A stretch of DNA of 64,000 nucleotides from an uncultured Bacteroidales bacterium. GTDB lineage: Bacteria > Bacteroidota > Bacteroidia > Bacteroidales > Paludibacteraceae. Below, in pieces: positions 34,541-63,150 of the stretch. Position 1 is the first letter of the stretch. Every line of letters begins with the position of its first letter. Both the position numbers and the translations under genes were made by a program. The notes below the pieces were generated by a model. It had not been told where the DNA came from. It worked only from the letters and a program-made list of their open reading frames with translations, and did no database searches. The stretch spans positions 1-64,000 of the forward strand of contig ONJT01000019.1 of the NCBI GenBank assembly GCA_900318245.1. The letters run 5' to 3'.

Positions 34541-34564
34541 AAGCATATCGCCCAAAATCCGCTG

Positions 34565-34596
34565 CAAAGGTACAACAAAATGCGCAATTATGCAAA
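34565..34596 (-). promoter_or_regulatory. Promoter of the HAD hydrolase gene
   Basis: Minus-strand TTTG (34593-34596), 20 bp, TACCTTTG (34565-34572). Divergent from the rhuM promoter, with 24 bp between the two -33 elements. Confidence 0.78.
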
Positions 34597-34620
34597 TAAT
34601 TAAGTCAAAAAATAGAATTG

Positions 34621-34652
34621 TTTGCATATATGAAAAAAAAGTAGTAATTTTG
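34621..34652 (+). promoter_or_regulatory. Promoter of rhuM
   Basis: TTTG (34621-34624), a 20-bp spacer beginning CATATATGA with an A tract, TAATTTTG (34645-34652), 20 bp before the rhuM ATG. Confidence 0.78.
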
Positions 34653-34672
34653 CCCCGCAAAATTGAAGCGAC

Positions 34673-45697: not shown

Positions 45698-46189
45698 ATG
45701 GCAATTGTAAAATGGGCACCGGGTATCGACTCGGTTTCGGGCCTCTTGAGCAAGCGTCCCAAAGCAGGCACCGCGCACAGCAGCCACCAGAGTGCGTTGT
45801 TGGCAACGCACCGCACCGCGGCGACGACCAACACCGACTGTACCCGCATCTACATGGTAGGTGAGTACAAACGCTCGACGGTACCGCAGGCGAAAGAGCT
45901 CGCAGCACGTGCTCGCTTCGCATCGGTAGCAGCAGCTGTCAAAGCGCGTAGCAAGGACCTGATGCAGCAGGCGACCGACATCACCAACTTCCTCGCACAG
46001 AAGGACACCGCCGGTGGTAAGAAAACCATACGACGCAGCTCTCAACGGCTAAGCGCTCGTATGCATGGCAGGAAGAGATCTCTTCGGAGGTCTCTTTTTT
46101 TGTATAAAAATATACAAACGCTTGCGTATGTCATTTTTTTTTTGTACTTTTGCACCCGCTTTTATCGGGTGTACGGGATAACGGGATAA
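45698..46189 (+). CDS. Small basic protein of a recurring Bacteroidales family, C-terminus frameshifted
   Basis: The 163-residue ORF starts 'MAIVKWAPGIDSVSGLLSKR' and contains 'HRTAATTNTDCTRIYMV' and 'ARARFASVAAAVKARSKDLM', the pattern of a small Bacteroidales protein family found beside smalltalk-type genes. Family members end soon after the 'QKDTAGGKKT'-like motif. Here the frame instead runs through a terminator (46073-46101) and a promoter to 46189. In the +1 frame after the GKKT codons, sequence encoding 'YDAALNG' ends with TAA at 46050-46052, just before the terminator. I infer a short deletion near 46020-46030. Confidence 0.55.
   Translation: MAIVKWAPGIDSVSGLLSKRPKAGTAHSSHQSALLATHRTAATTNTDCTRIYMVGEYKRSTVPQAKELAARARFASVAAAVKARSKDLMQQATDITNFLAQKDTAGGKKTIRRSSQRLSARMHGRKRSLRRSLFLYKNIQTLAYVIFFLYFCTRFYRVYGITG
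46073..46101 (+). terminator. Terminator of the small-gene operon
   Basis: A 10-bp stem (46073-46082 with 46087-46096, one G-T pair) with a TTCG tetraloop and a T run. It lies just before the nqr promoter. Confidence 0.85.
46121..46152 (+). promoter_or_regulatory. Promoter of the nqr operon
   Basis: CTTG (46121-46124), a 20-bp spacer beginning CGTATGTCA with a T tract, TACTTTTG (46145-46152). A CACCCG/CGGGTG hairpin (46153-46171) sits at the expected transcript start, and an ACGGGATA mini-repeat follows. Confidence 0.82.
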
Positions 46190-46250: not shown

Positions 46251-47646
46251 ATGCAAACAATCAAACTGAAACGTGGATTGGACATTCCGTTTGAGGGACA
46301 GGCGGCTGAGACGCTGGGTAGCGTACGGAGGCCGGAGGTCTTTCACGTAGTGCCCGACCAGTTCGCCGGCATCACACCCAAGCTGGATGTCAAAGTCGGC
46401 GATCGCGTGAAAGCGCGTGAAAGCGGGTAGCCCGCTGTTTCACGACAAGGCGTTTGAGGAGATGCTGTTCACGGCTCCGGTTTCCGGTGAGGTAAAGGAG
46501 ATTGTTCGAGGGGATCGTAGAAAAATCCTTTCGATCGATATTCTCGCCGACACGAAAATCGAGTACTTGAGCTTTGATAAGGAGCTTAAGGAGCTTAAGG
46601 ACAGTAAGGACTCTAAGGAGGCCATCAAAGCTCTCCTCTTAAAGAGTGGTTTGTGGGCATTGATGAAGCAACGTCCGTACGATTGCATCGCGATGCCGAA
46701 CAAGACTCCTCGCGCTATTTTTATTTCGAGTTTTGACAGTGCGCCTTGTGCCCCGAACTACGAGTGGGTGCTGAAAGGTCAGTTGCCGACATTGCAGGCA
46801 GCCGTTACGGCTCTCGGCAAGTTGGCTCCGGTGTTCATCGGTATCCAGGGCGGCGCACGTGCCACGGAGTTCCGTGAGTTGAAGGATTGCACCTTGTATG
46901 AGGTGTTTGGTCCGCACCCTGCCGGCAATGTCGGTGTGCAGCTGAACAACCTCGCGCCGCTGGCGAAAGGTGAGACGGTCTTCACGCTCAACATCCAGGA
47001 CCTCGCGCTTATCGGCCGGCTCTTCCAGAAGGGCATCGTCGATATGCAGAAGAAGGTGGCACTGACCGGTCCGCTCGCTTACGGACGTCAGTATTACAAC
47101 GTGCTGCCGGGTATGCCGGTGAGCGCTGTGCTGACGAGCAACGTACACACGGAAGTGCCCTGCCGTTACATCGCAGGTAACGTGCTGAGTGGCCGTCAGA
47201 TCACGCTCGATGACATGATTAGCATTTACGACAACCAACTGACCGTGCTCGACGAGGGCAGCGAGAACCATGAGTTCATGGGCTGGCTGTTGCCGCGGTT
47301 CAAGGCTTTCAACGCAGGTTGCACAGACCCCGCGAAGATGTTCGACAACGGGTTCACGCGTCGGTTGTTCGGACCGAAGAAGTACCAATGGGATGCCCGT
47401 CTGAAAGGTGGTCGCCGTGCGATCATCGTCAGCAACGAGTACGACCGCGTCTTCCCGATGGATATCTACCCCGAGTACCTGATCAAGGCTATGATCGCGG
47501 GTAATATCGATCGGATGGAGGCACTCGGCGCGTACGAGGTGGCACCCGAAGATTTTGCGCTGTGCGAGTATGTCTGCACGTCGAAAATGCCGCTGCAGGC
47601 CATCGTACGCGAGGCGTTGGACAATTTAAAGAAGGAGATTGAGTAA
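46251..47646 (+). CDS. nqrA: Na+-translocating NADH-quinone reductase subunit A, frameshifted
   Basis: The start is ATG at 46251. The reading frame opens with 'MQTIKLKRGLDIPFEGQA' and 'PDQFAGITPKLDVKVGDRVK', the NqrA N-terminus, but stops at 46428-46430. The rest of NqrA ('KAGSPLFHDKAFEEMLFTA', 'VLPGMPVSAVLTSNVHTEVP', 'MDIYPEYLIKAMIAGN') is in another frame from about 46417. The cause is an exact 10-bp tandem duplication (46404-46423); deleting one copy restores a 461-residue protein. A second oddity is a 9-bp-repeat segment ('KELKELKDSKDSK', about 46579-46620). NqrA is the cytoplasmic, quinone-binding subunit. A downstream GTG-initiated fragment (46417-47646) is open but lacks the N-terminus. 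Confidence 0.85.
46404..46423 (+). repeat. 10-bp tandem duplication in nqrA
   Basis: CGCGTGAAAG occurs twice in direct tandem (46404-46413 and 46414-46423) and shifts the nqrA frame by one. Removing either copy recreates the family-typical sequence 'VGDRVKAGSPLF'. Confidence 0.9.
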
Positions 47647-48841
47647 TGGAAAAGCTTTATCAGATATGGAAGAAGTTCGGTCGTTCTATGACGCTTTTGA
47701 CACCTTCCTGTTTACGCCGCAGACGACCGCTAAACGCAACGGTACGCATATCCACGACGGCAGCGACAGCAAACGCACGATGATCCTCGTGGTCATGGCG
47801 CTTGTTCCGGCGATGCTGTTTGGTATGTTCAACGTCGGCTACCAGCACCTGTTGGCTACCGGTCAGTTGGCAGCAGGCATGACCTGTGCCCTCTGGTGGA
47901 AAGCCTTTGGCTTCGGTCTGCTGGCTGTGCTGCCGTATATCATCGTTGCTTATGCAGTAGGTCTGGGAATTGAGTTCATCGTAGCGCAGATCAAGCACGA
48001 AGAGGTAGCGGAAGGCTTCCTCGTAACGGGATTCATCATTCCGCTGATCGTGCCGATCAACACGCCGCTGTGGCAAGTAGCTATCGCCGTGGCTTTCGCG
48101 GTTGTCTTCGCGAAGGAAGTGTTCGGCGGTACGGGTTATAACATCTTCAACGTAGCGCTTATCACGCGTGCGTTCCTGTTCTTTGCGTACCCGAGTTCGA
48201 TGACCGGTGACAAGCCGTTCATCCGCACGGAAGGCACATGGGGCTGGGATGGCGGTCATGCGCTCGTCGATGGTTTCTCGGGTGCTACGCCTCTCACGCA
48301 GCTGGCTACCGGTACTCCTGTGACCGAATCGTTCTGGGACATGGTCAACGGCCTTGTACCGGGATCGGTGGGTGAGACCTGCATCTGGGCTATCGCGCTC
48401 GGCGCTATCCTGCTGATCGCTACGGGCGTAGCAAGTTGGAAGACGATGCTGGCGATCTTCGTCGGCGGTGGTCTGACCGCTTGGCTCTTTAACATCGGCG
48501 GCAACGAGGCGAACCTCGCAGCGCAGTATCCGTGGTACATGCACCTCGTATCGGGCGGTTTCGCTTTCGGTGCGGTGTTCATGGCAACCGACCCGGTGAC
48601 CTCGGCTCGTACCGAGTGCGGCAAGTGGATCTACGGCTTCCTGATCGGTCTCGTGGCAGTGCTGGTGCGCGTTCTCAACCCGGGTTATCCGGAGGGAATG
48701 ATGCTGGCTATCCTGCTGATGAACGCCTTCGCGCCGCTCATCGACTGGTGCGTTGTGAACGCGAACATTCGCAAACGCGAACGTCGCGTTAAGGTACAAA
48801 GTGACAAAGTACAAAGTACAAAGGAAGGAGGCGCCCAATGA
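47646..48841 (+). CDS. nqrB: Na+-translocating NADH-quinone reductase subunit B, frameshifted near the 5' end
   Basis: The ATG at 47646 (overlapping the nqrA stop, with AAGGAG at 47632-47637) begins the expected 'MEKLYQIWKKF', but the frame then fails. From about 47682 the protein continues in another frame with 'FYDAFDTFLF' and 'SDSKRTMILVVMALVPAML' to 48841. The Nqr signature 'GFSGATPL' (FMN-linked Thr) and 'NPGYPEGMMLAILLMNAF' are present. About 12 residues normally between the two parts are missing, so a short deletion is likely. Subunit B is the large membrane subunit that carries FMN and translocates Na+. The last codons (48790-48830) are built from ACAAAGT units ('KVQSDKVQSTKEGG'). Confidence 0.85.
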
Positions 48842-49488
48842 AACTGAATACGAATTCGAATGTGTACACCTTCGTCTATATGACGATTGTGGTAATTATC
48901 GTAGCGGTCCTGCTGGCGCTCGCTAATCAGGCGCTCAAGCCGCGTCAGGACGCTAACATCCTGCTCGACAAGCAGAAACAGATCCTCGGTGCACTCAAGG
49001 TGGACTTCTCGCAGGCTGATCCCGCAGAGGTGTATTACACCCTCGTGAATGATACCTTGCGTTATGGTGACGCCGAAGTATATGTAGCTAACCTCAACGG
49101 CGCAATCAAGTATGTGCTGCCGCTCGAAGGTAAAGGTCTTTGGGGCGGTATCGGCGGCTATCTCGCTCTCGACGAGGACAAGAACACCATTTATGGTGTT
49201 AACTTCAACCACGAGTCCGAGACACCGGGTCTGGGCGCTAAGATCGTGGACATGCCTTTCCGCGCTCAGTTCGAGGGCAAGCATATCCGCAACGCCGAAG
49301 GACAAGTCGTTTCCGTGGCGGTGCTGAAAGCCGGTACACGTGCTGAAGGTCAGGAGCAGGTAGATGCCATCTCCGGCGCTACCATCACCTCGACCGGCGT
49401 CAGCACGATGCTCAACGAGGAACTCGTGAATAACTATGTTGAATTCTTAAACGAAAAGGAGGAAGACCATGTTGAGTCAGAAGACTAA
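48838..49488 (+). CDS. nqrC: Na+-translocating NADH-quinone reductase subunit C
   Basis: A 216-residue protein: one N-terminal membrane helix (about 10-30) and a periplasmic domain with the FMN attachment motif 'DAISGATITSTGVSTML' (FMN on the second Thr of SGAT-x-T). 'GLWGGIGGYLALDEDKNTIY' is typical. The start has a strong Shine-Dalgarno AAGGAGG (48825-48831) and overlaps the nqrB stop by 4 bp. It is intact, unlike its neighbours, and slightly shorter than Bacteroides NqrC (about 235). Confidence 0.93.
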   Translation: MKLNTNSNVYTFVYMTIVVIIVAVLLALANQALKPRQDANILLDKQKQILGALKVDFSQADPAEVYYTLVNDTLRYGDAEVYVANLNGAIKYVLPLEGKGLWGGIGGYLALDEDKNTIYGVNFNHESETPGLGAKIVDMPFRAQFEGKHIRNAEGQVVSVAVLKAGTRAEGQEQVDAISGATITSTGVSTMLNEELVNNYVEFLNEKEEDHVESED

Positions 49489-50089
49489 GGACACATTGTT
49501 AGGTCCTCTTAACGCCAATAACCCTGTCGTTGTGCAGATCCTCGGTATCTGTTCGGCACTCGCCGTAACGGTACAGCTGAAGCCTGCCCTCGTCATGGGT
49601 ATCGCTGTGACGATCATCGTAGCGATGTCAAACGTCATCGTGTCACTCATCCGCAACACTATCCCGATGCGTGTACGTATCATCGTGCAACTCGTGGTGG
49701 TAGCGGCGCTTGTGACGCTGGTCAGCGAAGTGCTCAAAGCGTTTGCTTATGATGTAGCGATGCAGCTGAGCGTTTACCTCGGTCTGATCATCACCAACTG
49801 TATTCTCATGGGTCGCCTCGAGGCGTTCGCCATGACTAATAACGCGTGGGATTCGCTCCTCGACGGTCTGGGCAACGGTCTGGGCTATGCCATCATCCTC
49901 GTCATCGTAGCCTTCGTGCGTGAGCTCCTCGGCTCGGGTCAACTGCTGGGCTTCCAGATCATCCCCGAATCGTTCTATGCGGCCGGCTACGAAAACTGCG
50001 GTATGATGCTCATGCCTGCCATGGCCCTCATCCTCGTCGGCTGTGTCATCTGGGTACATCGTTCAATTAATGATAAGGAGGCTAAGTAA
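49469..50089 (+). CDS. nqrD: Na+-translocating NADH-quinone reductase subunit D
   Basis: A 206-residue membrane protein with about six helices. '[20 protein letters not shown]', '[18 protein letters not shown]', '[20 protein letters not shown]' and '[20 protein letters not shown]' identify NqrD. It forms a membrane pair with NqrE in the Na+ path. The ATG overlaps nqrC by 20 bp, with AAGGAGG at 49456-49462. The reading frame is intact. Confidence 0.94.
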
Positions 50090-50665
50090 TGGAACACGCT
50101 TTAAGTTTATTTGTCCGCTCGATGCGTACTTCTTGGGAATGTGCTCATACCTCGCCGTTTCGAAGAACGTGAAGACCTCAGCCGGTCTGGGCGTAGCCGT
50201 TACTTTCGTGCTCGTCGTTACCCTGCCGGTTAACTACCTGCTGCAGACGCTCGTTCTGGAGCCCCTGCATCTGGAATACCTGTCGTTCATCCTCTTCATC
50301 GCCGTCATTGCCGCGATTGTGCAACTGGTGGAGATGGTTGTGGAGAAATACAGCCCGTCGCTCTACGCGAGCCTCGGTATCTTCCTGCCGCTGATTGCGG
50401 TGAACTGCGCCATCATGGGTGGTTCGCTCTTCATGCAGCAGCGTATCGGCCTGCCCGCAGTGGATGCCAAGGCCATCACCAGCCTGCTCGACGCGTTCTC
50501 GGTTCGGGTCTGGGATGGTTCTTAGCCATCGTCTGCCTCGCAGGTATTCGTGAGAAAATGGAGTATAACGATGTACCGAAGCCATTACAAGGTTTAGGAA
50601 TCACATTTATTACCGTAGGTCTGATGGCTATGGCATTTATGTGCTTCAGCGGCTTAGAAATCTAA
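50089..50665 (+). CDS. nqrE: Na+-translocating NADH-quinone reductase subunit E, two frameshifts
   Basis: The ATG at 50089 (AAGGAGG at 50075-50081, overlapping the nqrD stop) gives '[11 protein letters not shown]', the NqrE start. The next part, '[20 protein letters not shown]', is in another frame from about 50120, and about 8 family residues between them are missing. A second break near 50494-50500 (after 'SLLDAF') shifts to a third frame that reads '[19 protein letters not shown]' and '[19 protein letters not shown]', ending at TAA 50663-50665. A deletion of about 10 bp explains the second break. NqrE is the membrane partner of NqrD. Confidence 0.85.
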
Positions 50666-50680
50666 TAGGAGGAACGCAAT

Positions 50681-51964
50681 ATGAATATAACAGCTATTAT
50701 TTATGCAGTTGCAGTATTCTTAGTAGTAATACTCCTGTTAGTGGCTATCCTGCTCATCGCCAAACGATACCTCGTTTCGTCCGGTAAAGTCAAAGTGACC
50801 ATCAACGGCGACAAAGTCTATGACGTGGCAGCAGGTGGCTCGCTCCTCAACCAACTCGGCGAAGCCGGCGTTCACCTCCCCTCTGCCTGTGGCGGTAAGG
50901 GCTCGTGCGGTCAGTGTAAGTGCCAAGTCCTCAGTGGCGGCGGCGAGATCCTGCCTACCGAGACCGTACATTTCTCCCGCAAACAGCAGAAAGAAGGCTG
51001 GCGTCTGGGTTGCCAGGTCAAAGTCAAAGAAGACATCACCATGAAGGTCGATGAGGCTGTTCTGGGTGTCAAGGAATGGGAATGCGAGGTTATCTCCAAC
51101 AAGAACGTCGCTACCTTTATCAAGGAGTTCAAAGTGCAGCTGCCTCAGGGCGAGCACATGCACTTCGAGCCGGGTTCGTACGCTCAGATCATCATCCCTG
51201 AGTACGATATCGACTACGACCGCGACATGGATAAATCGCTCATCGGTGACCTCTACCTGCCCGCTTGGCAGAAGTTCGGCCTGTTCAAACTCAAACAGAA
51301 GAACACCCAGGCTACGGTACGTGCGTACTCCATGGCTAACTACCCCGACGAGGGCGACATCATCACCCTTACCGTCCGTATCGCTACCCCGCCGTTCAAA
51401 CCCAAAGATCAGTGCCCCAACGGACCGGAGTTCATGGATGTGCCCTGCGGTATCGCTTCTACCTATATCTTCTCGCTCAAACCGGGCGACAAAGTGCGCA
51501 TGAGCGGTCCTTACGGTGAGTTCCGTCCTGTTTACGACAGCAAGAAGGAGATGATCTGGGTCGGTGGTGGTGCAGGTATGGCTCCGCTGCGTGCACAGAT
51601 CATGCACATGTTGAAGACCCGCAACTGCCGTGACCGTGAGATGCACTATTTCTACGGTGCACGTGCTATCGACGAAGTCTTCTTCCTCGACGATTTCCTC
51701 GCTCTGGAGAAGGAGTACCCCAACTTCCATTTCCACTTGGCGCTGGACCGTCCGGACCCGAAGGCGGACCAATTGGGCATCAAGTACACCCCGGGCTTCA
51801 TCGCTCCTGTCATGGGCGACACCTACCTCAAGCAGCATGACGCTCCCGAGGATGTCGAGTACTACCTCTGCGGTCCTCCTATGATGGCCAAGACGGTATT
51901 GGATCTGCTCCACTCGCTCGGCGTAGACGATGCAGATATCCGTTTCGATAACTTCGGAGGTTAA
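50681..51964 (+). CDS. nqrF: Na+-translocating NADH-quinone reductase subunit F
   Basis: A 427-residue, full-length subunit: an N-terminal membrane helix (about 5-27), a [2Fe-2S] domain with '[20 protein letters not shown]' plus a fourth Cys in 'RLGCQ', the FAD-binding 'RAYSMANYP' and the NADH-binding '[17 protein letters not shown]' and '[15 protein letters not shown]'. It accepts electrons from NADH and passes them into the Nqr complex. Shine-Dalgarno AGGAGG at 50667-50672. The gene is intact. Confidence 0.96.
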
Positions 51965-51965
51965 T

Positions 51966-52442
51966 ATGCGTACAGAGCAAGAACTGCAAGGAGTGACTCT
52001 CTTAGGAAACCAGCACGTGCAATACTCGGATCAGTACAATCCGGGCGTGCTGGAGACCTTCGAGAACAAACACCCCGAAAACGAATACTTAGTGACGTTC
52101 GATTGTCCGGAATTCACGACCTTGTGTCCGAAAACCGGACAACCGGACTTCGGTCACCTGTTCATCAGTTACATCCCGCGCGAGCGCATGGTGGAGAGTA
52201 AGAGCCTCAAACTGTACCTCTTCTCGTTCCGCAACCACGGCGATTTTCATGAGGATTGCGTGAACATCATCATGAAAGACCTGGTGAAGCTGATGGATCC
52301 GAAGTACCTGGAGGTGACCGGTTGGTTCATGCCCCGCGGCGGCATCAGTATCTATCCGTTTGCGAACTATGCGGATAAGGAGCATGAAGCGTTGAAGGAA
52401 CAGCGTCTGCGCGAGCAATTCAGTAAAGTGTATGAAAGATAG
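51966..52442 (+). CDS. queF: preQ0 reductase (NADPH-dependent 7-cyano-7-deazaguanine reductase)
   Basis: A 158-residue unimodular QueF with the active-site Cys in '[14 protein letters not shown]' and the substrate-binding '[16 protein letters not shown]' and '[19 protein letters not shown]'. It reduces preQ0 to preQ1 in queuosine biosynthesis. The ATG at 51966 (1 bp after the nqrF stop) has GGAGG at 51956-51960; an in-frame upstream ATG inside nqrF is rejected. Confidence 0.93.
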
Positions 52443-53076
52443 TCTCATTGTACTCTCCGGTGGACTCGATTCCACAACGATGTTGTACGAGTATCAGTTT
52501 CGTATCGGCATGGCGCTGTCGTTTCACTATGGCAGCAACCATAACGACAAGGAGTTGGAGTTCGCCAAACTGCATTGCGAGCGGCTCGGCATCCCACATA
52601 TGGTGATCCGGCTGCCGTTCATCAAGCAGTTTTTTAAGTCTTCGCTCTTATCCGGCGCGGATGCGATTCCTGAAGGCAACTACGACGACGAGAACATGAA
52701 ATCGACCGTGGTGCCGTTTCGAAATGGTATCATGCTATCCATCGCGGCGGGAATTGCGGAGAACAACAAACTGCAATACGTGATGCTGGCGAACCATTCC
52801 GGCGACCATACGATCTATCCCGACTGCCGGCCGGAGTTCGTGGAAGCGATGAATAACGCGATCTGTTTTGGTACGTGGAACGGCGTGCAACTGCTGACAC
52901 CTTACACGCATCTCACGAAAGCGGAGATCGTGCGGCATGGCATGAAGTTGGGCATCAACTACGACGAGACATGGAGTTGCTACAAAGGTGGCGACAAGCC
53001 ATGCGGCGTATGCGGAACGTGCAGAGAGCGGGAAGAAGCGCTGCGGGACGCCGGCTACTATGATCAAAATCCCTGA
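52432..53076 (+). CDS. queC: 7-cyano-7-deazaguanine synthase
   Basis: A 214-residue PP-loop ATPase: '[14 protein letters not shown]' (ATP pyrophosphate loop), '[18 protein letters not shown]', '[16 protein letters not shown]' and the Zn-binding cysteines in '[16 protein letters not shown]'. It converts CDG to preQ0. It overlaps queF by 11 bp. A TACTGATT mini-repeat (53077-53104) separates it from queD. Confidence 0.95.
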
Positions 53077-53105
53077 ATACTGATTACTGATTACTGAATA
53101 CTTTC

Positions 53106-53438
53106 ATGTACTACGTACAAAAGACGATAGAGATCTCGGCGGCGCATAACCTGATGCTGTCGTACGAGAGTAAATGTGAGCACCTGCACGGTCATAACTG
53201 GATCATCGTGGTCTATTGCCGCGCGAAAGAGTTGAACCAGGACGGCATGGTGACGGACTTCACGCATATCAAACGCGTCGTGAAGGACACCTTTGACCAC
53301 AAGTATATCAACGAGATCCTCGACGTTAATCCGTCGGCGGAGAATATCGCCCGCTGGATCTGCGACCATGTGGAGAACTGCTACAAGGTGAGCGTGCAGG
53401 AGAGCGAAGGGAATGTCGCGATTTATGAGAGGGACTAG
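53106..53438 (+). CDS. queD: 6-carboxy-5,6,7,8-tetrahydropterin synthase
   Basis: A 110-residue PTPS-fold enzyme: zinc histidines in 'ISAAHNL' and 'HLHGHNW', the catalytic Cys in 'SKCEHLHGH', and the conserved 'MVTDFTHIKRVVKDTFDHKY' and 'NPSAENIARWI'. It makes CPH4 from dihydroneopterin triphosphate. The folE-type GTP cyclohydrolase that supplies its substrate is not in the window. Confidence 0.94.
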   Translation: MYYVQKTIEISAAHNLMLSYESKCEHLHGHNWIIVVYCRAKELNQDGMVTDFTHIKRVVKDTFDHKYINEILDVNPSAENIARWICDHVENCYKVSVQESEGNVAIYERD

Positions 53439-53466
53439 GACAACCTAAGTCTACATAGGACTACCT

Positions 53467-54123
53467 ATGGCTTATAAGGTTAACGAAATATTCTACACGT
53501 TGCAAGGCGAGGGTGCGCATATGGGTATCCCCGCTGTTTTTGTTCGGTTTAGCGGTTGTAACCTTCGTTGCCCGTGGTGCGACACGGAGTTTTCGGAGTC
53601 GACGCCGATGAGTGCCGAAGAGATCGTAGCCGAAGTACAAGACCTGTATGACATCCCCAACGAGCGCCGTAAGATGGTGGTGCTCACCGGCGGCGAACCG
53701 AGTCTGCAAGTAGACAAAACGCTTCTGGATGCGCTTCACGCCGCAGGATTCTATATCTGCATCGAGACGAATGGCACGCGTTCCCTACCCGATGGCATCG
53801 ATTGGATCACCTGTAGTCCGAAAGCCGGAGAGTCTCCGGAGACGCTTAGCCATGCGGTTGAGCGGCTCGCGCTGAAGAAAGTGAATGAAGTGAAGGTGGT
53901 GTTCACGGGCACGTATGATCCGGAGGTATGGCGCGGGCAGTTGGAAGCCGAGCATTGGATGCTGCAACCGCTGCGGTATAACGGCGAATGGTTGATGCAG
54001 AGCGGGATTGACGAATGGGAAGACGACCGAAACGACAACTTGCCGGAGACCGTGCGATATATACTATCGCATCCGTTCTGGCGACTCAGCGTTCAGATAC
54101 ATAAAATAGCGGGGCTACGATAG
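53467..54123 (+). CDS. queE: 7-carboxy-7-deazaguanine synthase (radical SAM)
   Basis: A 218-residue radical-SAM enzyme with the cluster motif CX3CX2C in 'SGCNLRCPWCDTEFSES', the N-terminal 'EIFYTLQGEGAHMG' and 'MVVLTGGEPSLQVDKTLL'. It rearranges CPH4 to CDG. With queF, queC and queD it completes the preQ1 set except for GTP cyclohydrolase. The stop codon (54121-54123) lies inside the terminator hairpin that separates the operon from nadC. Confidence 0.94.
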   Translation: MAYKVNEIFYTLQGEGAHMGIPAVFVRFSGCNLRCPWCDTEFSESTPMSAEEIVAEVQDLYDIPNERRKMVVLTGGEPSLQVDKTLLDALHAAGFYICIETNGTRSLPDGIDWITCSPKAGESPETLSHAVERLALKKVNEVKVVFTGTYDPEVWRGQLEAEHWMLQPLRYNGEWLMQSGIDEWEDDRNDNLPETVRYILSHPFWRLSVQIHKIAGLR

Positions 54124-54135
54124 CTCCGCTATTTT
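54103..54135. terminator. Bidirectional terminator between queE and nadC
   Basis: AAAATAGCGG pairs with CCGCTATTTT, extended by an inner GCTA/TAGC. A/T tracts on both ends let it work for queE (plus) and nadC (minus). It contains the queE stop codon. Confidence 0.9.
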
Positions 54136-54162
54136 GGTGTATGGTGTATAGTGTACAGTGTA
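54136..54162. repeat. GTGTATG-type mini-repeat at the nadC 3' end
   Basis: GGTGTATGGTGTATAGTGT and ACAGTGTATT form about four imperfect copies of GTGTA(T/C)(G/A) between the terminator and the nadC stop. Confidence 0.6.
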
Positions 54163-55029
54163 TTACTTCACGGCCTTAAAGGACATGTCGAGGCTCTTGT
54201 AACTGTGTGTCAGCGCTCCGACGGAGACGAAGTCCACGCCTTGCAGCGCATAGTCGCGGATGGTATCAATGGTGATGCCACCGGAGGACTCAATCTCCAT
54301 ATGACGACCGGCTTTCTTCTCCCATGCACGAATGAGATCCACCGCCTCTTTCGTCTTCGCGGGCGTGAAGTTATCGAGCATGATACGATCGGGGATATTG
54401 GTTGCGAGCGCCTCGTTGATCTCATCGAAATTGCGCACCTCGATCTCGATCTTCAGGTTCTTTCCCTTTTCCTTACAATAATCGCGTGCACGCGTGAGCG
54501 CGTTAGTGATGCCTCCGGCGAAGTCCACATGGTTGTCCTTGAGCAGGATCATATCGAACAGACCGATACGGTGGTTCATACCGCCTCCGAGCGCTACGGC
54601 TTCTTTCTCCAGATAACGGAGTCCCGGCGTAGTCTTACGCGTATCAAGCACATGACAACCCGTGTCAGAAATCAGGCGCTGGTACTTGTCGGCAGTGGTC
54701 GCTACACCCGACATACGCTGCATGATATTAAGCATCGTGCGCTCGATCTGCAACAAGCTTAACTCTTTGCCATAGACCTTGAACGCGATGTCTCCCGGTT
54801 TCACGTGGTCACCGTCATGCAGGAACTGCTCAAAGCGACACTCGGGATCGAAATAGTTGATGATCTCTTTCGCCACCTCGACACCGGCGAGCACACCCGT
54901 GTCCTTGATGATGAGTTGCTGACAACCCATCTGCGTAGGCGGAATACAACTGAGCGAGGTATGGTCGCCATCGCGAATATCCTCTTCAAACCAGATAGCA
55001 ATAAGCTTGCGAAGTTCTTGTTTTTCCAT
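54163..55029 (-). CDS. nadC: Nicotinate-nucleotide pyrophosphorylase (carboxylating)
   Basis: A 288-residue quinolinate phosphoribosyltransferase: 'EEDIRDGDHTSLSC' near the start, 'ERTMLNIMQRMSGVATTA', 'DTRKTTPGLRYLEKEAVALGG', 'MNHRIGLFDMILLKDNH' and 'ESSGGITIDTIRDYALQGVD'. It turns quinolinate plus PRPP into nicotinate mononucleotide in NAD synthesis. The promoter at 55050-55081 is 20 bp upstream, divergent from the gene at 55102. Confidence 0.94.
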   Translation of the reverse strand: MEKQELRKLIAIWFEEDIRDGDHTSLSCIPPTQMGCQQLIIKDTGVLAGVEVAKEIINYFDPECRFEQFLHDGDHVKPGDIAFKVYGKELSLLQIERTMLNIMQRMSGVATTADKYQRLISDTGCHVLDTRKTTPGLRYLEKEAVALGGGMNHRIGLFDMILLKDNHVDFAGGITNALTRARDYCKEKGKNLKIEIEVRNFDEINEALATNIPDRIMLDNFTPAKTKEAVDLIRAWEKKAGRHMEIESSGGITIDTIRDYALQGVDFVSVGALTHSYKSLDMSFKAVK

Positions 55030-55049
55030 AATTTTTAAGTTTTACGCTG

Positions 55050-55081
55050 CAAAAGTAGTAAAAAATTTGCATATATGCAAA
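55050..55081 (-). promoter_or_regulatory. Promoter of nadC, overlapping the divergent promoter
   Basis: Minus-strand TTTG (55078-55081), 20 bp, TACTTTTG (55050-55057). Its -33 region is shared with the plus-strand promoter. Confidence 0.85.
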
Positions 55082-55097
55082 AAAAAGTATAAATTTG
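55066..55097 (+). promoter_or_regulatory. Promoter of the outer-membrane protein gene, overlapping the nadC promoter
   Basis: TTTG (55066-55069), 20 bp, TAAATTTG (55090-55097). Positions 55066-55081 form a perfect 16-bp palindrome, TTTGCATATATGCAAA, carrying both -33 elements. Confidence 0.85.
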
Positions 55098-55101
55098 CAG
55101 C

Positions 55102-55758
55102 GTGAAAGCAAAGTTTTTCGTCATAGGGTTGCTGTGTCTGTGCTCGTTGAGCCTGTTCGCGGAGGACAAATATGCCTATATGACGCAGCATAACGAGTTG
55201 CGCGTCGGATGGGGCGACCAGCTGTTCGAGAGCCTCGTTTGGCACAACCCGACGGCTATCACGACGACGATGCCGGAGAGTTATCGGCAGACCTATCACG
55301 AGAACTACCACCACGACCAACACGTGTGGATCGAGTACCAATGGCGCTTCAAGCACTGGTTCTCCTTCGGCGCGATGGTCGATTGGAGCGATGTGCGTTG
55401 GGACAATGTGACGCGCAACGGCCGCGGTGTGGAAGTGGCCCGTGAAGGCGGACATTGGTTCTATAACCTCGTGTTCATGCCTACTATCCGCTTCACCTAT
55501 CTCCATCATCCGAACGTGAACCTCTACTCGGGTCTGGGTCTCGGAATGGATATCAACGGCGGTTCAGAGATGGACGGCTGGGGACGAAAGACGGTCGTTG
55601 GTGCGGCCGTTCAGTTCACGGTCATCGGTCTGAGCGCCAACTACGAGCGCTGGTTCTGGTTCGCCGACTTCGGCGGCCTGTACGCCCTGCGCAACGGTAA
55701 CACGATTTTTATGACTTCATCCAAAATAATCAGTGCAGGATTCGGTGCAAGGTTCTAG
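55102..55758 (+). CDS. Outer-membrane beta-barrel protein of unknown function
   Basis: A 218-residue protein with a signal peptide (about 1-20, 'LCLCSLSLFAEDKYAYM'). Alternating beta strands follow ('QHVWIEYQWRFKHWFSFGAM', 'GHWFYNLVFMPTIRF', 'NLYSGLGLGMDING') and the protein ends in 'GFGARF', as outer-membrane barrels do. The start is GTG at 55102, because the signal peptide begins there and no ATG is in frame before residue 27. The GTG lies only 4 bp after the -7 element, so the transcript is probably leaderless or nearly so. Confidence 0.78.
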   Translation: MKAKFFVIGLLCLCSLSLFAEDKYAYMTQHNELRVGWGDQLFESLVWHNPTAITTTMPESYRQTYHENYHHDQHVWIEYQWRFKHWFSFGAMVDWSDVRWDNVTRNGRGVEVAREGGHWFYNLVFMPTIRFTYLHHPNVNLYSGLGLGMDINGGSEMDGWGRKTVVGAAVQFTVIGLSANYERWFWFADFGGLYALRNGNTIFMTSSKIISAGFGARF

Positions 55759-55782
55759 GTGCTTCGCACGTTAAACAGTTAA

Positions 55783-57156
55783 ATGGTTAAAGGGTTAAAA
55801 ATAGGATTTCTAATCGCCGCTTTGGCTTTGACGGCTTGTCAGTTTCGGCCGGATGAAAGTGTGGATTTCAGCGACCTGCAAGGCGCGCCGGATCTCGCTT
55901 TCCGCGTGATCGGGCAACATGAGGTGAACCTCAACGACGGAGTTCCGATGAACTGCTACCTGCCCGGCGGCGAACGAGTGGTGGATTTCGTAGCAGAGGA
56001 GTCGGAGTATTCGGAGGAATCCGAGTATTCGGAAGATTCGGAGGGTTCGAAGAATCCAAACAAGGCGCCGAAGACGACCAGCACGACGGCCGCCGATATC
56101 ATGCAGTCGCTACTCAAATACCACGACCAGAACAAAGTGATTGAAGTCGTAGGTACCTACCCGAGCATCAACACCAAGTGGGATACCGTCACCCTGAGCG
56201 GAAAGGTCATCCTGCCTCGCGGACGCAGGCCCAAACGCCTCATCCTCGTGAGCCATTATACCGTTTGCTCGAACTCCGAAGCACCGAGTAACTGCTTCTC
56301 GCTCGAAGGTATGCTGGCGCCGATGGGTTATGGTCTGATCATCCCCGATTATATGGGTTATGGTGTGACCGTCAATGAGGTTCATCCCTACCTCGTCATG
56401 GACCTCACCGCGCGTAATGTACTTGATATGTACCATGCCGTTAAACCATGGCTGGAGGCCGTAGGCATGAGTCCCGAAGAGCCCGAAATTATCCTCATGG
56501 GATATAGTCAAGGGGGCGCGAATACTATGGCAGTAGAGCGACTCATTGAGACGGAGTATTACGCAGACGAGAACCCGAAGCAGGTAAAAATTCACCGTGT
56601 CTTTGCGGGTGGTGGTCCGTATGACGTGAAAGCCACCTATGAGCAGTTTGTCAACACCGACTTGGCTAACTATCCTGTCGGCGTACCCCTTGTCGTACAG
56701 GGTATGATTCTCGGCAACAGTCTCAATATCAAAATGGAAGATCTGGTGAGACCGCGTATCAGCGACCATATTGACGAGTGGATCAACAGCAAGAAATATA
56801 CGACCTCGCAGATCAATCAGTTCATCGGCACGAAAGTGACGCATGAAATTCTTACCGAAGAAGCGATGGATCAGCGTTCATGGAAAGTATCGGAACTTCA
56901 GAAAGCCATGATCGAGAACTCCATCGTCTCGTTCTCTTGGATGCCGGAAGCCTCCGTATATATCGCCCACTCCATGGATGACGAGACGGTATCCTTCCAG
57001 AATGCCGTCAACGCGAAAGCCCGGTGGGCAGCGTCCAATATCACCTATAACTTCGGCCATTACGGCGGACATGTGATGACTTGCCTGCGCTTCATCTATT
57101 CCGTACAATCCCTCTTGGAACAAGAGGAAAAAGAAAGGAGAGAGTATGAGGAATAA
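55783..57156 (+). CDS. Lipoprotein with alpha/beta-hydrolase (secretory lipase-like) domain
   Basis: A 457-residue lipoprotein (lipobox 'LTACQF', Cys about 19) with a lipase-like alpha/beta hydrolase fold: 'LILVSHYTVCSNSEAPSNCF', 'YGLIIPDYMGYG', nucleophile 'ILMGYSQGGANTM', a late Asp in 'HSMDDETVSF' and His in 'GHYGGHVMTC'. It resembles secretory lipases or feruloyl/acyl esterases. A repeat region (about residues 70-95, 'EESEYSEESEYSEDSEG') and the start 'MVKGLKIGF' are encoded by GTTAAA- and GGAGTATTC-type repeats. It overlaps the next gene by 11 bp. Confidence 0.78.
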   Translation: MVKGLKIGFLIAALALTACQFRPDESVDFSDLQGAPDLAFRVIGQHEVNLNDGVPMNCYLPGGERVVDFVAEESEYSEESEYSEDSEGSKNPNKAPKTTSTTAADIMQSLLKYHDQNKVIEVVGTYPSINTKWDTVTLSGKVILPRGRRPKRLILVSHYTVCSNSEAPSNCFSLEGMLAPMGYGLIIPDYMGYGVTVNEVHPYLVMDLTARNVLDMYHAVKPWLEAVGMSPEEPEIILMGYSQGGANTMAVERLIETEYYADENPKQVKIHRVFAGGGPYDVKATYEQFVNTDLANYPVGVPLVVQGMILGNSLNIKMEDLVRPRISDHIDEWINSKKYTTSQINQFIGTKVTHEILTEEAMDQRSWKVSELQKAMIENSIVSFSWMPEASVYIAHSMDDETVSFQNAVNAKARWAASNITYNFGHYGGHVMTCLRFIYSVQSLLEQEEKERREYEE

Positions 57157-58069
57157 AGGCGAAAGGTTAAAGGTGAAAGGCGAAAGGATTTTGCTCTTCC
57201 TTTCAATTTTCATTTTTCAATTTTCAATTTCTTCCTGTAACCCCGAAGCACCGTGGGTGGTTGACGATGTGACGATAGAGATGAGTGCACAGAACGTCTC
57301 CGCGGGATTCATCGAGTATAATTTCCATCCGAACAAAGATGCGTATTACCTCATCTCTTGTATGCCGGCAAACGAACTGGTCGATCCTTTCAACCATTCC
57401 AAGCAATTCATGATTCTGGCACTCGACTCCGCCAACACCGCCTATATCCAATGGAGGAACGGGCTACTCAGAGAGGGTGAGTTTAATATCGCGCCCTTCG
57501 CGAGCCATTGCCTCCAATACGGTCCTATCACGCATTTCTTTACGAACCTGACGCCCGACACCGACTACTGGGTCTTTGCCTTTGTGGTCAATCCCGAGAC
57601 ACTCAAACCCGTCGGAAAACTGTTCATCGAAACCGTGAAGACCACCGCCGAGAGTATCATGGACGTGCATTTCGATTACCGCGTACGCGGCATATGGGAT
57701 TACATATATCCGCTTGATCCGGACGATAAGATCAACAGCAAACTGCCCTACCTCGCCTCTACAGTGGACAGTCTCAACCTCGCAGAAATATGGGGTGGCA
57801 TCACACCCGAAGACTATTTCAATGACCTCTTCACCACCATCTCCGTAAGCCCTGACGAGTCCATTCACTATGGCGTCACGGTGGTCAAGAACGACGGTAG
57901 CGGAACGAGTATACCCTTCGAAGTCAATCATACCTACTACACCGCCATCGTCAGCTATGACGGTTTCATGGGCAATAATGTCATCTATAAGTTCACCTGG
58001 ACGGGAGACAACTACGAGGCCTATTTCACGGATGAAGATAACATTGCTATTTACAGGGAAGACGAGTGA
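57146..58069 (+). CDS. Lipoprotein of unknown function
   Basis: A 307-residue lipoprotein: a long basic N-region written by a GGCGAAAGG/TTAAAGG mini-repeat ('MRNKGERLKVKGERILLF'), a hydrophobic core ('FIFQFSISSC') and lipobox Cys at about 31, then a fibronectin/Ig-like fold with 'LTPDTDYWVFAFVVNPET' and 'DVHFDYRVRGIWDYI'. No family recognised. It overlaps the lipase-like gene by 11 bp and rlmH by 38 bp. Confidence 0.7.
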   Translation: MRNKGERLKVKGERILLFLSIFIFQFSISSCNPEAPWVVDDVTIEMSAQNVSAGFIEYNFHPNKDAYYLISCMPANELVDPFNHSKQFMILALDSANTAYIQWRNGLLREGEFNIAPFASHCLQYGPITHFFTNLTPDTDYWVFAFVVNPETLKPVGKLFIETVKTTAESIMDVHFDYRVRGIWDYIYPLDPDDKINSKLPYLASTVDSLNLAEIWGGITPEDYFNDLFTTISVSPDESIHYGVTVVKNDGSGTSIPFEVNHTYYTAIVSYDGFMGNNVIYKFTWTGDNYEAYFTDEDNIAIYREDE

Positions 58070-58502
58070 CGCGCGTCTGAGTTCCCTCATCGATGAATAC
58101 CAACAGCGCTTGCGGCACTATGTGCCGTTTGAACTCGTCGTGCTGCCGGATCTTAAGAACGCCAAGTCCCTGACCGAGGACCAGATAAAAACCGCCGAAG
58201 GCAACCTCATTCTGCAAGCCCTCACGCCCGCCATGGATGTCATTCTGCTGGACGAACACGGCCGCGAGTTCCGCTCGATTGAGTTCGCCGATTACCTCCA
58301 GAAGAAGATGTCGTCGGGCAAAGACATGATGCTCGTCATCGGCGGCCCCTACGGTTTCAGCGACGCCGTCTATCAGCGCGCCAACGGCAAACTGTCTTTC
58401 TCCCAAATGACTTTCTCCCACCAGATGATACGAATAATGGCCATCGAGCAGATCTACCGCGCAATGACCATTCTCCGGGGTGAACCCTATCACCATGAGT
58501 GA
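58032..58502 (+). CDS. rlmH: 23S rRNA (pseudouridine1915-N3)-methyltransferase
   Basis: A 156-residue SPOUT methyltransferase with 'VILLDEHGREFRS', the SAM-binding trefoil-knot loop 'LVIGGPYGFSDAVYQRAN', and the RlmH C-terminal signature 'TFSHQMIRIMAIEQIYRAMT' followed by 'GEPYHHE'. It methylates pseudouridine 1915 in helix 69 of 23S rRNA. The ATG at 58032 lies inside the previous gene; longer upstream extensions are rejected. The convergent peptidase stop follows with no gap. Confidence 0.93.
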   Translation: MKITLLFTGKTSDARLSSLIDEYQQRLRHYVPFELVVLPDLKNAKSLTEDQIKTAEGNLILQALTPAMDVILLDEHGREFRSIEFADYLQKKMSSGKDMMLVIGGPYGFSDAVYQRANGKLSFSQMTFSHQMIRIMAIEQIYRAMTILRGEPYHHE

Positions 58503-59501
58503 TTACCTCACTCGTATCTTCTGTCCTATTCGGATCACAGAACTCTCCCTGATCTTATTGAGTTGGCATAGTTTCTTCACGGTCGTGCCGTATTTCTTCG
58601 CGATACCGCTCAGCGTGTCGCCGCTGCGCACGGTATGGTACTTCCTCGCCGCGGCCGCTGCACGCGCCTGCTTCATGGCTTTGATGCCGATTACGTACTC
58701 ATCCGGGTACTTCAACTGACCCGTACCGAAATTGATCACGCCCGCCGGATCCATCGCTTCGCCTAAATAACGAATCTCGAAATGCAGGTGACTACCGGTC
58801 GAACGACCTGTGTTGCCGCCCAAGCCCAGCACATATCCGCTCGGAACCATCTCATATTCATCCACCATCGGACGACTCAAGTGACCATAAACGGTCTCCA
58901 AACCGTTGGGGTGACGAACGACCACGAAATATCCGTATCCGCGCGGATCCCATCCGACGATACGCACCTGTCCCGGCCAAGCCGAACGAATCGAATCGCC
59001 CACCTGTACTTTCAGGTCCGTACCCTTGTGCATGCGGTTGCGACGCCAACCATACGGGCTGGTGATGTAACCCGGATGCGGCAGCGTAAAGCCCGCCATC
59101 GACACGCGCACATCGTCCTTCAGGCTATCGAACATCGTCCCATACGGGTTCACGCGCTCGTCCGTCCATATAAAACGATAAACCGTGTCAGCCGGGTGAT
59201 GGTTAATAAGGTTCGTATCCAACATGAACTGCGGCGCCAAACGATAGACTACATCTCCGTCCTTCGTACGAACGATGATCTTCTGCGGCAGCAACTCCAT
59301 CTCACAACCCAGAATCAAGGTATCGTGCGAGAACAAGCCCGCCAGACATTCCGGCAACTCACTAGATCGTACGTCCAACGAATCCAGATCCTCTAACTCC
59401 GCACCTTCGCTATCCACGAAAGCCGTGTCAACAGGCTCCTGCGCGCTTAATGGAAGCACAAGCAGTGCCAGCAGAAGCCACACAGATGTAATACGAGACA
59501 T
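58503..59501 (-). CDS. M23-family metallopeptidase with LysM domain
   Basis: A 332-residue secreted peptidase: a signal peptide (about 1-20, '[12 protein letters not shown]'), an N-terminal linker, an M23 (lysostaphin-type) domain with '[13 protein letters not shown]' and '[10 protein letters not shown]' carrying the zinc His/Asp and His-x-His, and a C-terminal LysM ('[19 protein letters not shown]'). It cuts peptidoglycan cross-bridges in the periplasm, often in division or envelope remodelling. The ATG at 59499-59501 is used; it overlaps the EF-hand gene by 55 bp. Confidence 0.9.
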
Positions 59502-61087
59502 ACGATTCCTAAGATTACAGCAATAACACATAACGCTATCAACCATTTCGCCCATGGTTTCAAGCCTTTCTTCTTGATCTTGATGATCGGGAATGCCACC
59601 TGCTCGGTCAGCGTGCGGCCAAACGGCACAGAGATGATTGCATCGGCGTTCACCGCCCAACCGTTGGCGTTCAGCACCGGCGCCAGGTTACGGCGACGCA
59701 ACTTCATATACGCCATGATCATACTCGGACCGCTGATGACGAGCAATATACATACAAACACGATCACATATTGCCACCAGAGGAAACCGCTCATGCCTTT
59801 GGCTACTGCTGCCAGCGCGGTGCCGATCATGCCTAAAGCCATACCGATGGCGGCGAATATACCGGCGAACTTCGCGATATCGAACGCCTGTTTCTTCTCC
59901 GCCAATAATGGATCGGTAGAAACGCCTTCCGTCTTCTCCTTCATGTCCTCGAATGCCTTCGCGTCTTTCTCCGCCGCCGACTTGTTGATCTTCTCTTCGA
60001 TCCAGTTCGCCAACTTGCGGTACGGGGTCCAGAACGCCTGACGAATAGATATTGGGTTGTCGATGATCTTCGTCACCGTAGCGTCGTAATCCAGACCGTC
60101 GTTATCGTAGAAGACCGCGTTCTTACCGATCGACAGGTTCTTGATCTCGCCCTGCGTCATCGCCGCCACGATCTGCAGCGTCTTACCCGTTTTCTTGTTG
60201 ATGCAGTTGCAGTACAGCAGATACATACCGCTCAGCGGCGCCTGGGCGTCATGCTTGCTCATGTCGTGCACGCGGATACACAAGTGGCACGCGCGCTGGT
60301 CAATAATCAAGGTACCCGCCTGGAAGGAAGCAATCGTGGCCTCGTCTTGGTCATAGAAATCCTCGAGGGTCACGAAGTTACGCAGCAAGCGGTAGAAATC
60401 GCGATGCAGCAACAGCAACTTACGCAAGGGCTCAAAGACCGCCTTCGCTGCAGCCAATGCCTCGGCGTTCGCACTCTCAGCCGCAGCTTTCGCAGCTTCC
60501 CATTCGGCGATCTGCGCACCCATCTCCGCGAATTTCTTCTCTGTCATACCCGGCTTCACTGCGTCCTCTGGAATAACCGCCAAACCGAGTTTCTGCAACT
60601 TCTCCTGCTCGAAATACGCGGCGTAATCGGCACTCTTCTCCTTATAAGCCGCGATGACATCCGCCTCGAGCGGAGCTGCCGGAACAGCTTGCTCCTCGAT
60701 GGTAACAGCCGCGATGGCTGCGTCCACATCGGCGAGACTTACCTTGCCGTCCTTTGCCAATGGCTCAGCAACAGCCTTTATCGCTTCGTCGGCGATATTG
60801 TCCAGCGCAAGTTCGTCTTTCTGCTCGAACAGACTCTGCGGGTCTTTGAGGGCTGCACACAGGTAATCGGCTGTCGCCACTACCTCTTTCACACGCAACT
60901 GACCGTCGCCGTCAAGGTCAATCAGACGCAACGACTCTTCGCTGATCTCCAGACCGGTGGTCGGACAACTGAGCACGGTCCACATCTTTTTGTCTAATTC
61001 ACCCAAGTGACGAATGTCCTCGGCATCATGAATGCGCACGCGGGTCACACCTCCCACATTCGCAAAACTCCATTTGTAATTAGCCAT
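59447..61087 (-). CDS. Membrane protein with EF-hand-like motif, unknown function
   Basis: A 546-residue protein beginning '[20 protein letters not shown]'. It has an EF-hand-like loop '[12 protein letters not shown]' (about 55-66), an Ala/Glu-rich helical section (about 165-225), then two membrane helices (about 395-450) and a third at the C-terminus followed by a Cys/His-rich end ('[12 protein letters not shown]'). The sequence '[20 protein letters not shown]' marks the first helix pair. No family name is recognised, though homologues seem common in Bacteroidales. The ATG at 61085-61087 fits the promoter at 61128-61159. Confidence 0.75.
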
Positions 61088-61127
61088 AGTATAATTGATT
61101 TTTAATTTGCTCTTACCTTTGCGGGTG

Positions 61128-61159
61128 CAAAGGTACAAAAAAAAAATGACATACACAAG
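61128..61159 (-). promoter_or_regulatory. Promoter of the EF-hand protein gene, inside the rpsA terminator
   Basis: Minus-strand CTTG (61156-61159), a 20-bp spacer beginning TGTATGTCA, TACCTTTG (61128-61135). The -33 element lies within the rpsA terminator stem. Confidence 0.78.
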
Positions 61160-61172
61160 TGTGCATGCCATT
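61145..61172 (-). terminator. Terminator of rpsA
   Basis: A long stem (about 13 bp with two G-T pairs) around CACA/TGTG followed on the minus strand by a 10-nt T run (61135-61144); a T run also follows on the plus strand. Confidence 0.8.
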
Positions 61173-61196
61173 TTTTTTACAAAAGCTTCGCCGAAA

Positions 61197-62989
61197 TTAC
61201 TCAGCGTCTTTCTTGGTTGCCTTCTTAGCCGGCTTCTCTTCTGCGGGCTCCTCTGCCTTAGCGGCTTTCTTTGCAGGCTTAGCCTCTGCCTCGAGGGATG
61301 CCTTCAGTTCTGCGAGCGCAGAGAGATCACCAAGGGTGGTCTTCTCTACCTTCGGCAGGTCGAGAGCGGGTTCTTCAGCCTTAGCGGCTTTCTTAGCTGC
61401 CTTCGGAGCTGCCTCCTTGCGCTCCTCCCAAGTGCGGAGGTGCGAAACGAGGATACGCTTAGCGTCGCGGTTGAACTCAATCACCTTGAAGCTCAGGGTG
61501 TCACCAACAGCAACCGGGCTCTTGTCTTCCTTCTGGAGGTGGCGGGTCGTGCAGAATGCCTCAACGCCGTCCTCGAGCGAAACAACTGCGCCCTTGTCGG
61601 TCAGTTCAACAACCTTACCATCAACGATGGTATCTACGCCGAACTTAGCTTCGAGCTCTTCCCACGGGTTCTCCTCGAGTTGTTTGTGACCGAGGGAGAG
61701 ACGGCGGTTAGCTACGTCGATGTCGAGAACAACAACTTCGATCTGTGCGCCGATCTGGGTGAACTCATTCGGGTGTTTGATCTTCTTGGTCCAGCTCAGG
61801 TCGCTGATGTGGATGAGTCCGTCAACGCCTTCCTCGATCTCTACAAAGACACCGAAGTTGGTGAAGTTACGAACCTTAGCCCAGTGGCGTGTGCCAACTG
61901 CGTACTTGGTCTCCACGTTAGCCCACGGATCAGCCTTGAGTTGCTTGATACCGAGACTCATCTTACGCTCAGCGCGGTCGAGAGTCAGGATAACTGCATC
62001 TACCTCGTCGCCGACTTTCAGGAAGTCATTAGCGCTGCGGAGGTGCTGGCTCCAGCTCATCTCACTTACGTGAACGAGACCTTCTACACCTTCAGCGATC
62101 TCAACGAATGCGCCGTAATCAGCCATCACAACCACCTTACCGTGAACCTTGTCACCTACCTTGAGGTTTGGATCAAGAGCATCCCACGGATGCGGAGTCA
62201 ACTGCTTGAGACCGAGCGCGATACGCTTCTTCTCCTCATCGAAGTCGAGGATAACGACGTTGATCTTCTGGTCGAGTTGCAGCAGCTCGTGCGGGTCATT
62301 AACGCGGCCCCAGCTGAGGTCAGTGATGTGGATAAGACCATCCACGCCGCCCAGGTCGATGAACACACCGTAGTTGGTGATGTTCTTAACCGTACCTTCG
62401 AGTACCTGGCCCTTCTCGAGTTTGCCAACGATCTCAGCCTTTTGAGCCTCGAGTTCAGCCTCGATAAGCGCTTTGTGGGAAACAACGACGTTGCGGAATT
62501 CCGGATTGAGTTTCACGATCTTGAACTCCATCGTCTTACCAACGAGGATGTCATAGTCGCGAACCGGCTTCACGTCGATCTGGCTACCGGGGAGGAATGC
62601 TTCCATGCCGAGTACGTCCACGATCATGCCGCCTTTCGAACGCCATTTGATGTAACCGGTAACGATCTCACCTGCGTTGTAAGCCTCGTTAACGCGGTCC
62701 CAAGCGCGAGCGGTGCGTGCCTCCTTGTGAGACAGAACGAGCTGGCCCTTCTTGTCCTCCTGGCTCTGGATGTAGACTTCTACTTTGTCGCCTACCTTCA
62801 GCTCAGGATTGTAACGGAACTCAGCAGCCGGAACGATACCGTCCGACTTGTAACCTACGTTTACAACGACTTCGCGTTTGTTGATACTGATGACGGTACC
62901 CTCAACGACTTCGTTGTCCTTGATGTGCCTTGCTTTTGTGCTTCATAGGCATCCCAGTCGAAGTTCTGGAGAGAAAGATTTTCTGCCAT
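61197..62989 (-). CDS. rpsA: 30S ribosomal protein S1, frameshifted near the 5' end
   Basis: S1-type protein with six S1 (OB-fold) repeats, e.g. 'GGMIVDVLGMEAFLPGSQID', 'ITNYGVFIDLGGVDGLIHIT', 'VMADYGAFVEIAEGVEGLVH' and 'FTNFGVFVEIEEGVDGLIHI', plus a Lys/Ala-rich C-terminus. The start ATG at 62987-62989 gives 'MAENLSLQNFDWDAYEAQK', the Bacteroidales S1 N-terminus. Then the frame breaks near 62925-62940; the following S1 repeat ('HIKDNEVVEGTVISINKREV' and onward) is in another frame with no start codon before 62627. About 20 residues normally between these parts are missing. S1 recruits mRNA to ribosomes and is normally essential, so this break is either an assembly error or requires explanation. 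Confidence 0.9.
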
Positions 62990-63101: not shown

Positions 63102-63110
63102 AAAAGCGTG

Positions 63111-63142: not shown

Positions 63143-63150
63143 TTTTAAAG

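Follow-up and report, generated by a model that had tools for sequence, protein, structure and literature searches.

Frame lesions in the nqr operon and rpsA of a Paludibacteraceae draft genome are most probably errors of metagenome assembly

The stretch of DNA analyzed here (the window) comprises the first 64,000 nucleotides of contig ONJT01000019.1 (G000:C12:1-64000) from an uncultured Bacteroidales bacterium of the Paludibacteraceae, whose draft genome (GCA_900318245.1) amounts to 2.26 Mb in 56 contigs. At 46251-51964 it contains an operon for the Na+-translocating NADH:quinone oxidoreductase (Nqr) in the order nqrA-nqrB-nqrC-nqrD-nqrE-nqrF, with each subunit matched by the NCBIfam nqrA-F profiles, and further along it carries rpsA. 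As assembled, not all six subunits have continuous frames, nqrA, nqrB and nqrE being broken. The genes in question are as follows.

46251-47646, plus strand: nqrA, broken, with a 5' piece at 46251-46415 and a 3' piece from 46414, both matched by NCBIfam nqrA (alignment, tandem repeat finder, tblastn frames).
47646-48841, plus strand: nqrB, broken at codon 12, with the 3' piece matched by NCBIfam nqrB (alignments, frames).
48838-49488, plus strand: nqrC, intact (frames, NCBIfam, tblastn).
49469-50089, plus strand: nqrD, intact (frames, NCBIfam, tblastn).
50089-50665, plus strand: nqrE, broken twice (NCBIfam, alignments, tblastn, frames).
50681-51964, plus strand: nqrF, intact; a contig of the related genome G111 ends inside it, at window position 51659.
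61200-62989, minus strand: rpsA, for ribosomal protein S1, its frame broken after codon 22 (at 62925); the G111 contig that stops in nqrF has its second end here, at window position 62490.

In DNA comparison, the best-matching pieces of 12 congeneric loci are 79-91% identical to the window operon. The loci closest to the window nqrD come from metagenome-assembled genomes labelled Paludibacteraceae or Bacteroidales, and the titles of many indicate ruminants.

Lesion sizes were obtained by alignment with the 12 loci of congeneric genomes and by blastn against fetched loci of other genomes. In nqrA, 10 bp are added by a tandem duplication at 46404-46425, located by alignment and by the tandem repeat finder. 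In nqrB, 40 bp are missing at 47680/47681, with about 13 conserved codons gone, and nqrE lacks 22 bp at 50123 and 10 bp at 50498, with about 7 and about 3 conserved codons gone, respectively. All four lesions break the frame, and both flanks are conserved in the alignment with the 12 loci. A first-pass annotation, made from the sequence alone, had described just such a pattern, with four lesions across nqrA, nqrB and nqrE, nqrA broken through a 10-bp duplication, nqrB near codon 12 and nqrE near its start and near its end, and with nqrC, nqrD and nqrF intact; the sizes and positions given here, and the three open frames, bear this out.

Two tandem-repeat insertions in the same genes were considered as a cause of the lesions and rejected, as both leave the reading frame unchanged and neither is next to a break. 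One is 33 bp long (relative to the four relatives compared), near 46580-46615 in nqrA, where a tandem repeat of a 9-bp unit occupies 46578-46620, and the other is 24-42 bp long, depending on the relative, near 48790-48825 at the 3' end of nqrB. The latter repeat, at 48788-48829, measures about 35 bp with a unit of 7 bp, and copies 83-97% identical to it are found on numerous contigs of the genus; it is a dispersed short repeat that here lies in frame with the gene. We also discarded, as the sign of a mechanism, the fact that the lesion lengths (10, 40, 22 and 10 bp, and 46 bp in rpsA) all equal 1 modulo 3, since other loci have lesions of 44 and 23 bp and contig C11 of the same genome has one of 44 bp.

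The first-pass annotation had described lesions in the nqr operon. A fifth lesion of the same kind, overlooked before, lies in rpsA, where 46 bp are deleted at 62925 on the minus strand and the frame is changed (five queries). It is the one further long, well-supported frame lesion in the 29.3 kb of the window covered by the relatives at hand. Escherichia coli depends on ribosomal protein S1 for viability, and a search of the same genome with the 3' piece of the protein found no second rpsA, returning one weak match on C10 (34% over 85 residues). In a 747-kb sample of the genome, with 202 kb of coding sequence comparable with relatives, six lesions were accepted: the four in nqr (32-78 queries each), that in rpsA (5 queries) and one on C11 (2 queries), the last a loss of 44 bp near the end of a 935-residue frame (L203:7061, G000:C11). 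Four of the ten lesion clusters were dropped: two in nqrF and one in rpsA, because the single query behind each gives an identical shift against other genomes, and a fourth at 48820, whose two queries apparently run over from nqrB into nqrC. Other genomes in the frame comparison have such lesions too, among them losses of 23 bp (nqrF) and 32 bp in G034, as well as single-query lesions of 64 bp in G002 and 28 bp in G030, both deletions. Further non-triplet indels in the window are mostly of 1-5 bp and often in cancelling pairs, with 13 and 19 bp near 41261 in two of four loci; the protein-level comparison shows no frame change there.

The same indels were sought in related genomes, a check proposed along with the first-pass annotation. 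Junction words of 16 and 20 bp are absent from all 248 loci of other genomes, only part of which cover the lesion sites; the 16-bp word just left of the nqr junctions is present in 15 to 49 of these loci, and that just right of them in 17 to 25. Nor was any lesion found in common with another genome of the lineage (0 of 248 loci, with the G111 assembly being without nqrA-E). A tblastn survey of 80 named loci, in which, counting the window, nqrA was found in 77, nqrB in 79, nqrC, nqrD and nqrE in 81 and nqrF in 72, showed none of the window lesions; it is blind near gene ends, leaving even the nqrB lesion of the window unreported, and its counts for other genomes are lower bounds. One locus of this survey, L076, has a stop in nqrC. 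Four of five additional genomes align over nqrA-E, and the four lesions of the window appear as gaps in each, of equal length except for 9 at the nqrA site (G104) and 37 at the nqrB site (G093); these genomes were compared by alignment gaps only, with gaps below 4 bp unlisted.

These comparisons also bear on whether full proteins might be made from the broken frames by programmed frameshifting or correction of the transcripts, an option that the first-pass annotation had raised. Apart from the conservation of the downstream frames, nothing was found in its favor. Conserved codons are missing from nqrB and nqrE, no examined locus has such a site (in the aligned loci, the tblastn survey or the junction words), and no motif recurs at the junctions by eye. 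We give this explanation next to no credence.

Every lesion adjoins, on at least one side, 60-160 bp that are identical to the assemblies of other species. Exact cross-species matches reach all of the nqr junctions, with lengths to the left and right of 160+40, 160+90, 140+60 and 120+70 bp as read on a grid of tested lengths. At the rpsA junction the exact matches measure 63 and 64 bp, and the C11 lesion has on one side an exact match of at least 150 bp to a stretch of G035. When virtual indels of the same sizes were placed elsewhere in the operon, such sums were reached at 1-4% of places each, for a joint P of about 7.5e-5. This test replaced a first one that compared the junctions with single positions (5e-6 for the mean; 0 of 200,000 draws for all four) and was too generous. 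In the 747-kb sample, 1.7% of positions lie next to exact matches of at least 60 bp, against 6 of 6 lesions. This enrichment is inflated and truly smaller, because a lesion can be recognized only in sequence comparable with relatives (202 of 747 kb) and because the presence of nqr was the ground for choosing some of the contigs of the relatives. Window 21-mers in common with the fetched loci lie almost only inside the nqr operon, a pattern that is largely by construction, this set having been picked by nqr.

Identity to each relative is mosaic, with tracts at 100% beside tracts at 66-85%. The best relative switches at the 22-bp site, and identity drops soon after the nqrA site and the 10-bp site. 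Natural recombination between species at identical tracts, leaving joints that are imprecise but real, would fit this pattern. However, a mixed assembly also yields mosaicism, and rpsA is lesioned too. Joints that break a frame are not an expected product of homologous recombination between identical tracts, and we regard such an origin of the lesions as extremely improbable.

Interruptions at the same places are seen in other assemblies as well. By its RnfB, which is 98% identical, G111 is the nearest relative, and one of its contigs, of 10,881 bp, matches window 51659-62490 end to end at 94%, terminating inside nqrF and inside rpsA. The G111 assembly stops in exactly the two islands that carry the window lesions. 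For nqrA-E, this assembly, listed as 80% complete, gave no match save short dispersed repeats and a 125-bp piece resembling rnf. Of the 80 named loci, 25 stop within 500-2500 bp past the start of nqrD, mostly in nqrE-nqrF. Four of the 80 have gap-free deletions whose sizes resemble those in the window: 40 bp in nqrB (RUG10750), 44 bp in nqrE (RUG11936), 23 bp in nqrF (Sheep_1_mag_28) and 19 bp in nqrF (RUG324). The metagenome bin RUG10750 contains two distinct nqr operons, each on a contig of its own (L036 and L040), and one of them has the 40-bp nqrB deletion. Five further nqr breaks are runs of N in UBA assemblies; N runs occur in 7 of 13 UBA loci and in none of the 67 others, and one in UBA2800 begins exactly at the 22-bp nqrE site of the window.

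The gap-free deletions fall in 4 of the 26 loci titled to RUG and related rumen studies and in none of the 54 others (Fisher, 0.009), a grouping by record title that was made after the four had been seen and that takes the title to indicate the study. In the portions of the reports at hand, those rumen studies used IDBA-UD for single samples and MEGAHIT for co-assemblies (PMC6785717, PMC7820578, PMC5830445).

The juxtaposition of lesions, cross-species identity and breaks in other assemblies suggests that the nqr and rpsA lesions are very probably errors of short-read metagenome assembly and not mutations of the organism; most probably they exist in the record alone. The nqr operon and rpsA are islands with stretches of 60-160 bp that are letter-identical to congeneric species, so that in a sample with several such species the assembler would meet a fork at each identical stretch. 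Flanking pieces would then be joined by read pairs, with the gap or overlap between them misjudged. Misjudged joins would give blunt deletions of tens of bases, as in nqrB, twice in nqrE and in rpsA, and an unmerged overlap would give a short tandem duplication, as in nqrA. We infer that short reads from a mixed sample underlie this genome, that this joining was the step that erred and that the reads would restore the frames.

Assembly error by collapse or duplication of short repeats was one of three readings offered by the first-pass annotation. The error itself is favored by the identity at the junctions, the deletions and N runs of other assemblies and the contig ends of G111, and the other two, fresh inactivation and tolerated or corrected frames, are not. 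The repeats, on the other hand, are seemingly shared between species and do not lie within this genome. Repeat collapse within the genome was rejected, as a search for the Nqr/Rnf family finds two places, nqrB of the window and rnfD of an Rnf operon on C20. A DNA search gave three own-genome matches, and among the matches listed are the window itself and a 109-bp match on C20.

Fresh inactivation would mean that Nqr was truly and recently lost through several small indels, in a lineage that lives on Rnf. The sequence around the breaks is undecayed, every lesion has a frame-breaking length, and the Rnf operon on C20 has open rnfC, rnfD, rnfG, rnfE and rnfA. As far as the consulted part of one study goes, Prevotella proteomes contain subunits of both Nqr and Rnf (PMC6560451). 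Such a history would nevertheless require four indels that arose independently in a single operon whose genes show no clear decay otherwise: in comparison with four relatives, 65-84% of differences fall at third codon positions in nqrA, nqrB and nqrE versus 58-88% in nqrC, nqrD and nqrF, which suggests no clear relaxation of selection in the broken genes. The indels sit at flanks that are identical across species, and the G111 contig ends in the same two genes. Because rpsA, probably essential and with no second copy found, bears a like lesion, and because the sites track cross-species identity, we consider fresh inactivation very unlikely.

Several points, besides the inflation of the genome-wide enrichment, weigh against assembly error. 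The nearest relative, G111, is without nqrA-E and offers no comparison at the lesion sites. By the same identity measure, the gap-free lesions of the other loci have fractions of 0.61, 0.02, 0.27 and 0.10, not clearly above background, and three of the four do not stand out from their surroundings. In nqrA, part of which diverges strongly (a stretch following the duplication), the share of third-position differences is 65-71%, below all intact genes in comparison with G032 and G035 (two of the four relatives). Had an inactivation happened very recently, it would likewise have left no decay. The RGIG study, in the part of its report at hand, also used MEGAHIT and IDBA-UD (PMC8199421), yet RGIG loci show no gap-free indel in the tblastn survey, and the grouping by pipeline therefore does not separate the assemblers cleanly. 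Finally, as the Rnf operon on C20 is present, Nqr may be dispensable and its loss need not be lethal. This dispensability explains neither the lesion in rpsA, nor the siting of the lesions, nor the contig ends, and assembly error is the explanation that we retain.

The Rnf operon provides an observation of its own. The RnfB of this genome (L211:6240-6659, equivalent to G000:C20:26240-26659) has 140 residues, with a Pfam match to the N-terminal Fe-S domain only, and the open rnfC, rnfD, rnfG, rnfE and rnfA follow its gene. Of 101 genomes of the genus searched, 93 gave an RnfB match: in 43 the frame is short (139-180 residues) and its alignment extends nearly to the end of the short protein, in 46 it runs to 223-364 residues, and four are undecided. 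In an alignment of 11 RnfB sequences, eight short ones lack, in frame, a block of about 160-190 residues that holds the ferredoxin clusters, and they have a tail in common with the long RnfB of G017. Since the short form is found in dozens of genomes, it can hardly be an assembly error. The C-terminal domain of RnfB takes electrons from ferredoxin, according to the accessible part of a review (PMC12174285), which was the only match in one literature search for RnfB without the ferredoxin domain and which, in that part, does not describe such a short RnfB. An Rnf complex with the short RnfB may be without the usual electron uptake from ferredoxin. That the lesions are real and that the lineage has just lost Nqr, depending now on an Rnf with an RnfB without the ferredoxin-accepting domain, we hold to be highly improbable; if it were true, Rnf ion pumping would have to be fed in some other way.

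Some features of the window lie outside the broken genes. A small gene at 45698-46048, with no Pfam match, may be broken at its end, and paralogues of it stand at the very starts of contigs C10 (L202:5-356) and C18 (L209:13-189) of the same genome, which suggests that this multicopy gene breaks the assembly. Short stretches at 34553-34668, 46106-46159, 55040-55102, 57155-57230 (7-bp tandem repeats), 61115-61179 and 63101-63165 have numerous matches, each of about 40-110 bp, scattered through the relatives. The one at 46106-46159, before nqrA, might, at a guess, be a promoter-like repeat.

If the lesions are errors of assembly, a draft genome drawn from a community of close relatives can make a conserved central gene appear inactivated through its very conservation, and inferring from a genome of this kind that Nqr, or a gene like rpsA, has been lost would mislead. 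Two signs are usable without reads: exact cross-species identity up to the junctions, and contigs of relatives that end in the same genes.

The window operon resembles the nqrABCDEF operon of Bacteroidota in its six genes, their order from A to F and their NCBIfam matches, and it differs in that the frames of nqrA, nqrB and nqrE are interrupted where those of no other examined locus are. Small local misassemblies are a familiar kind of error in short-read metagenome-assembled genomes. The accessible part of one report mentions a single, larger insertion (PMC5242441). The lesions described here resemble the small kind as short gap-free deletions, or an unmerged overlap, beside sequence common to several species, and they differ from it in being unusually many, with four in one operon and a fifth in rpsA on the same contig.

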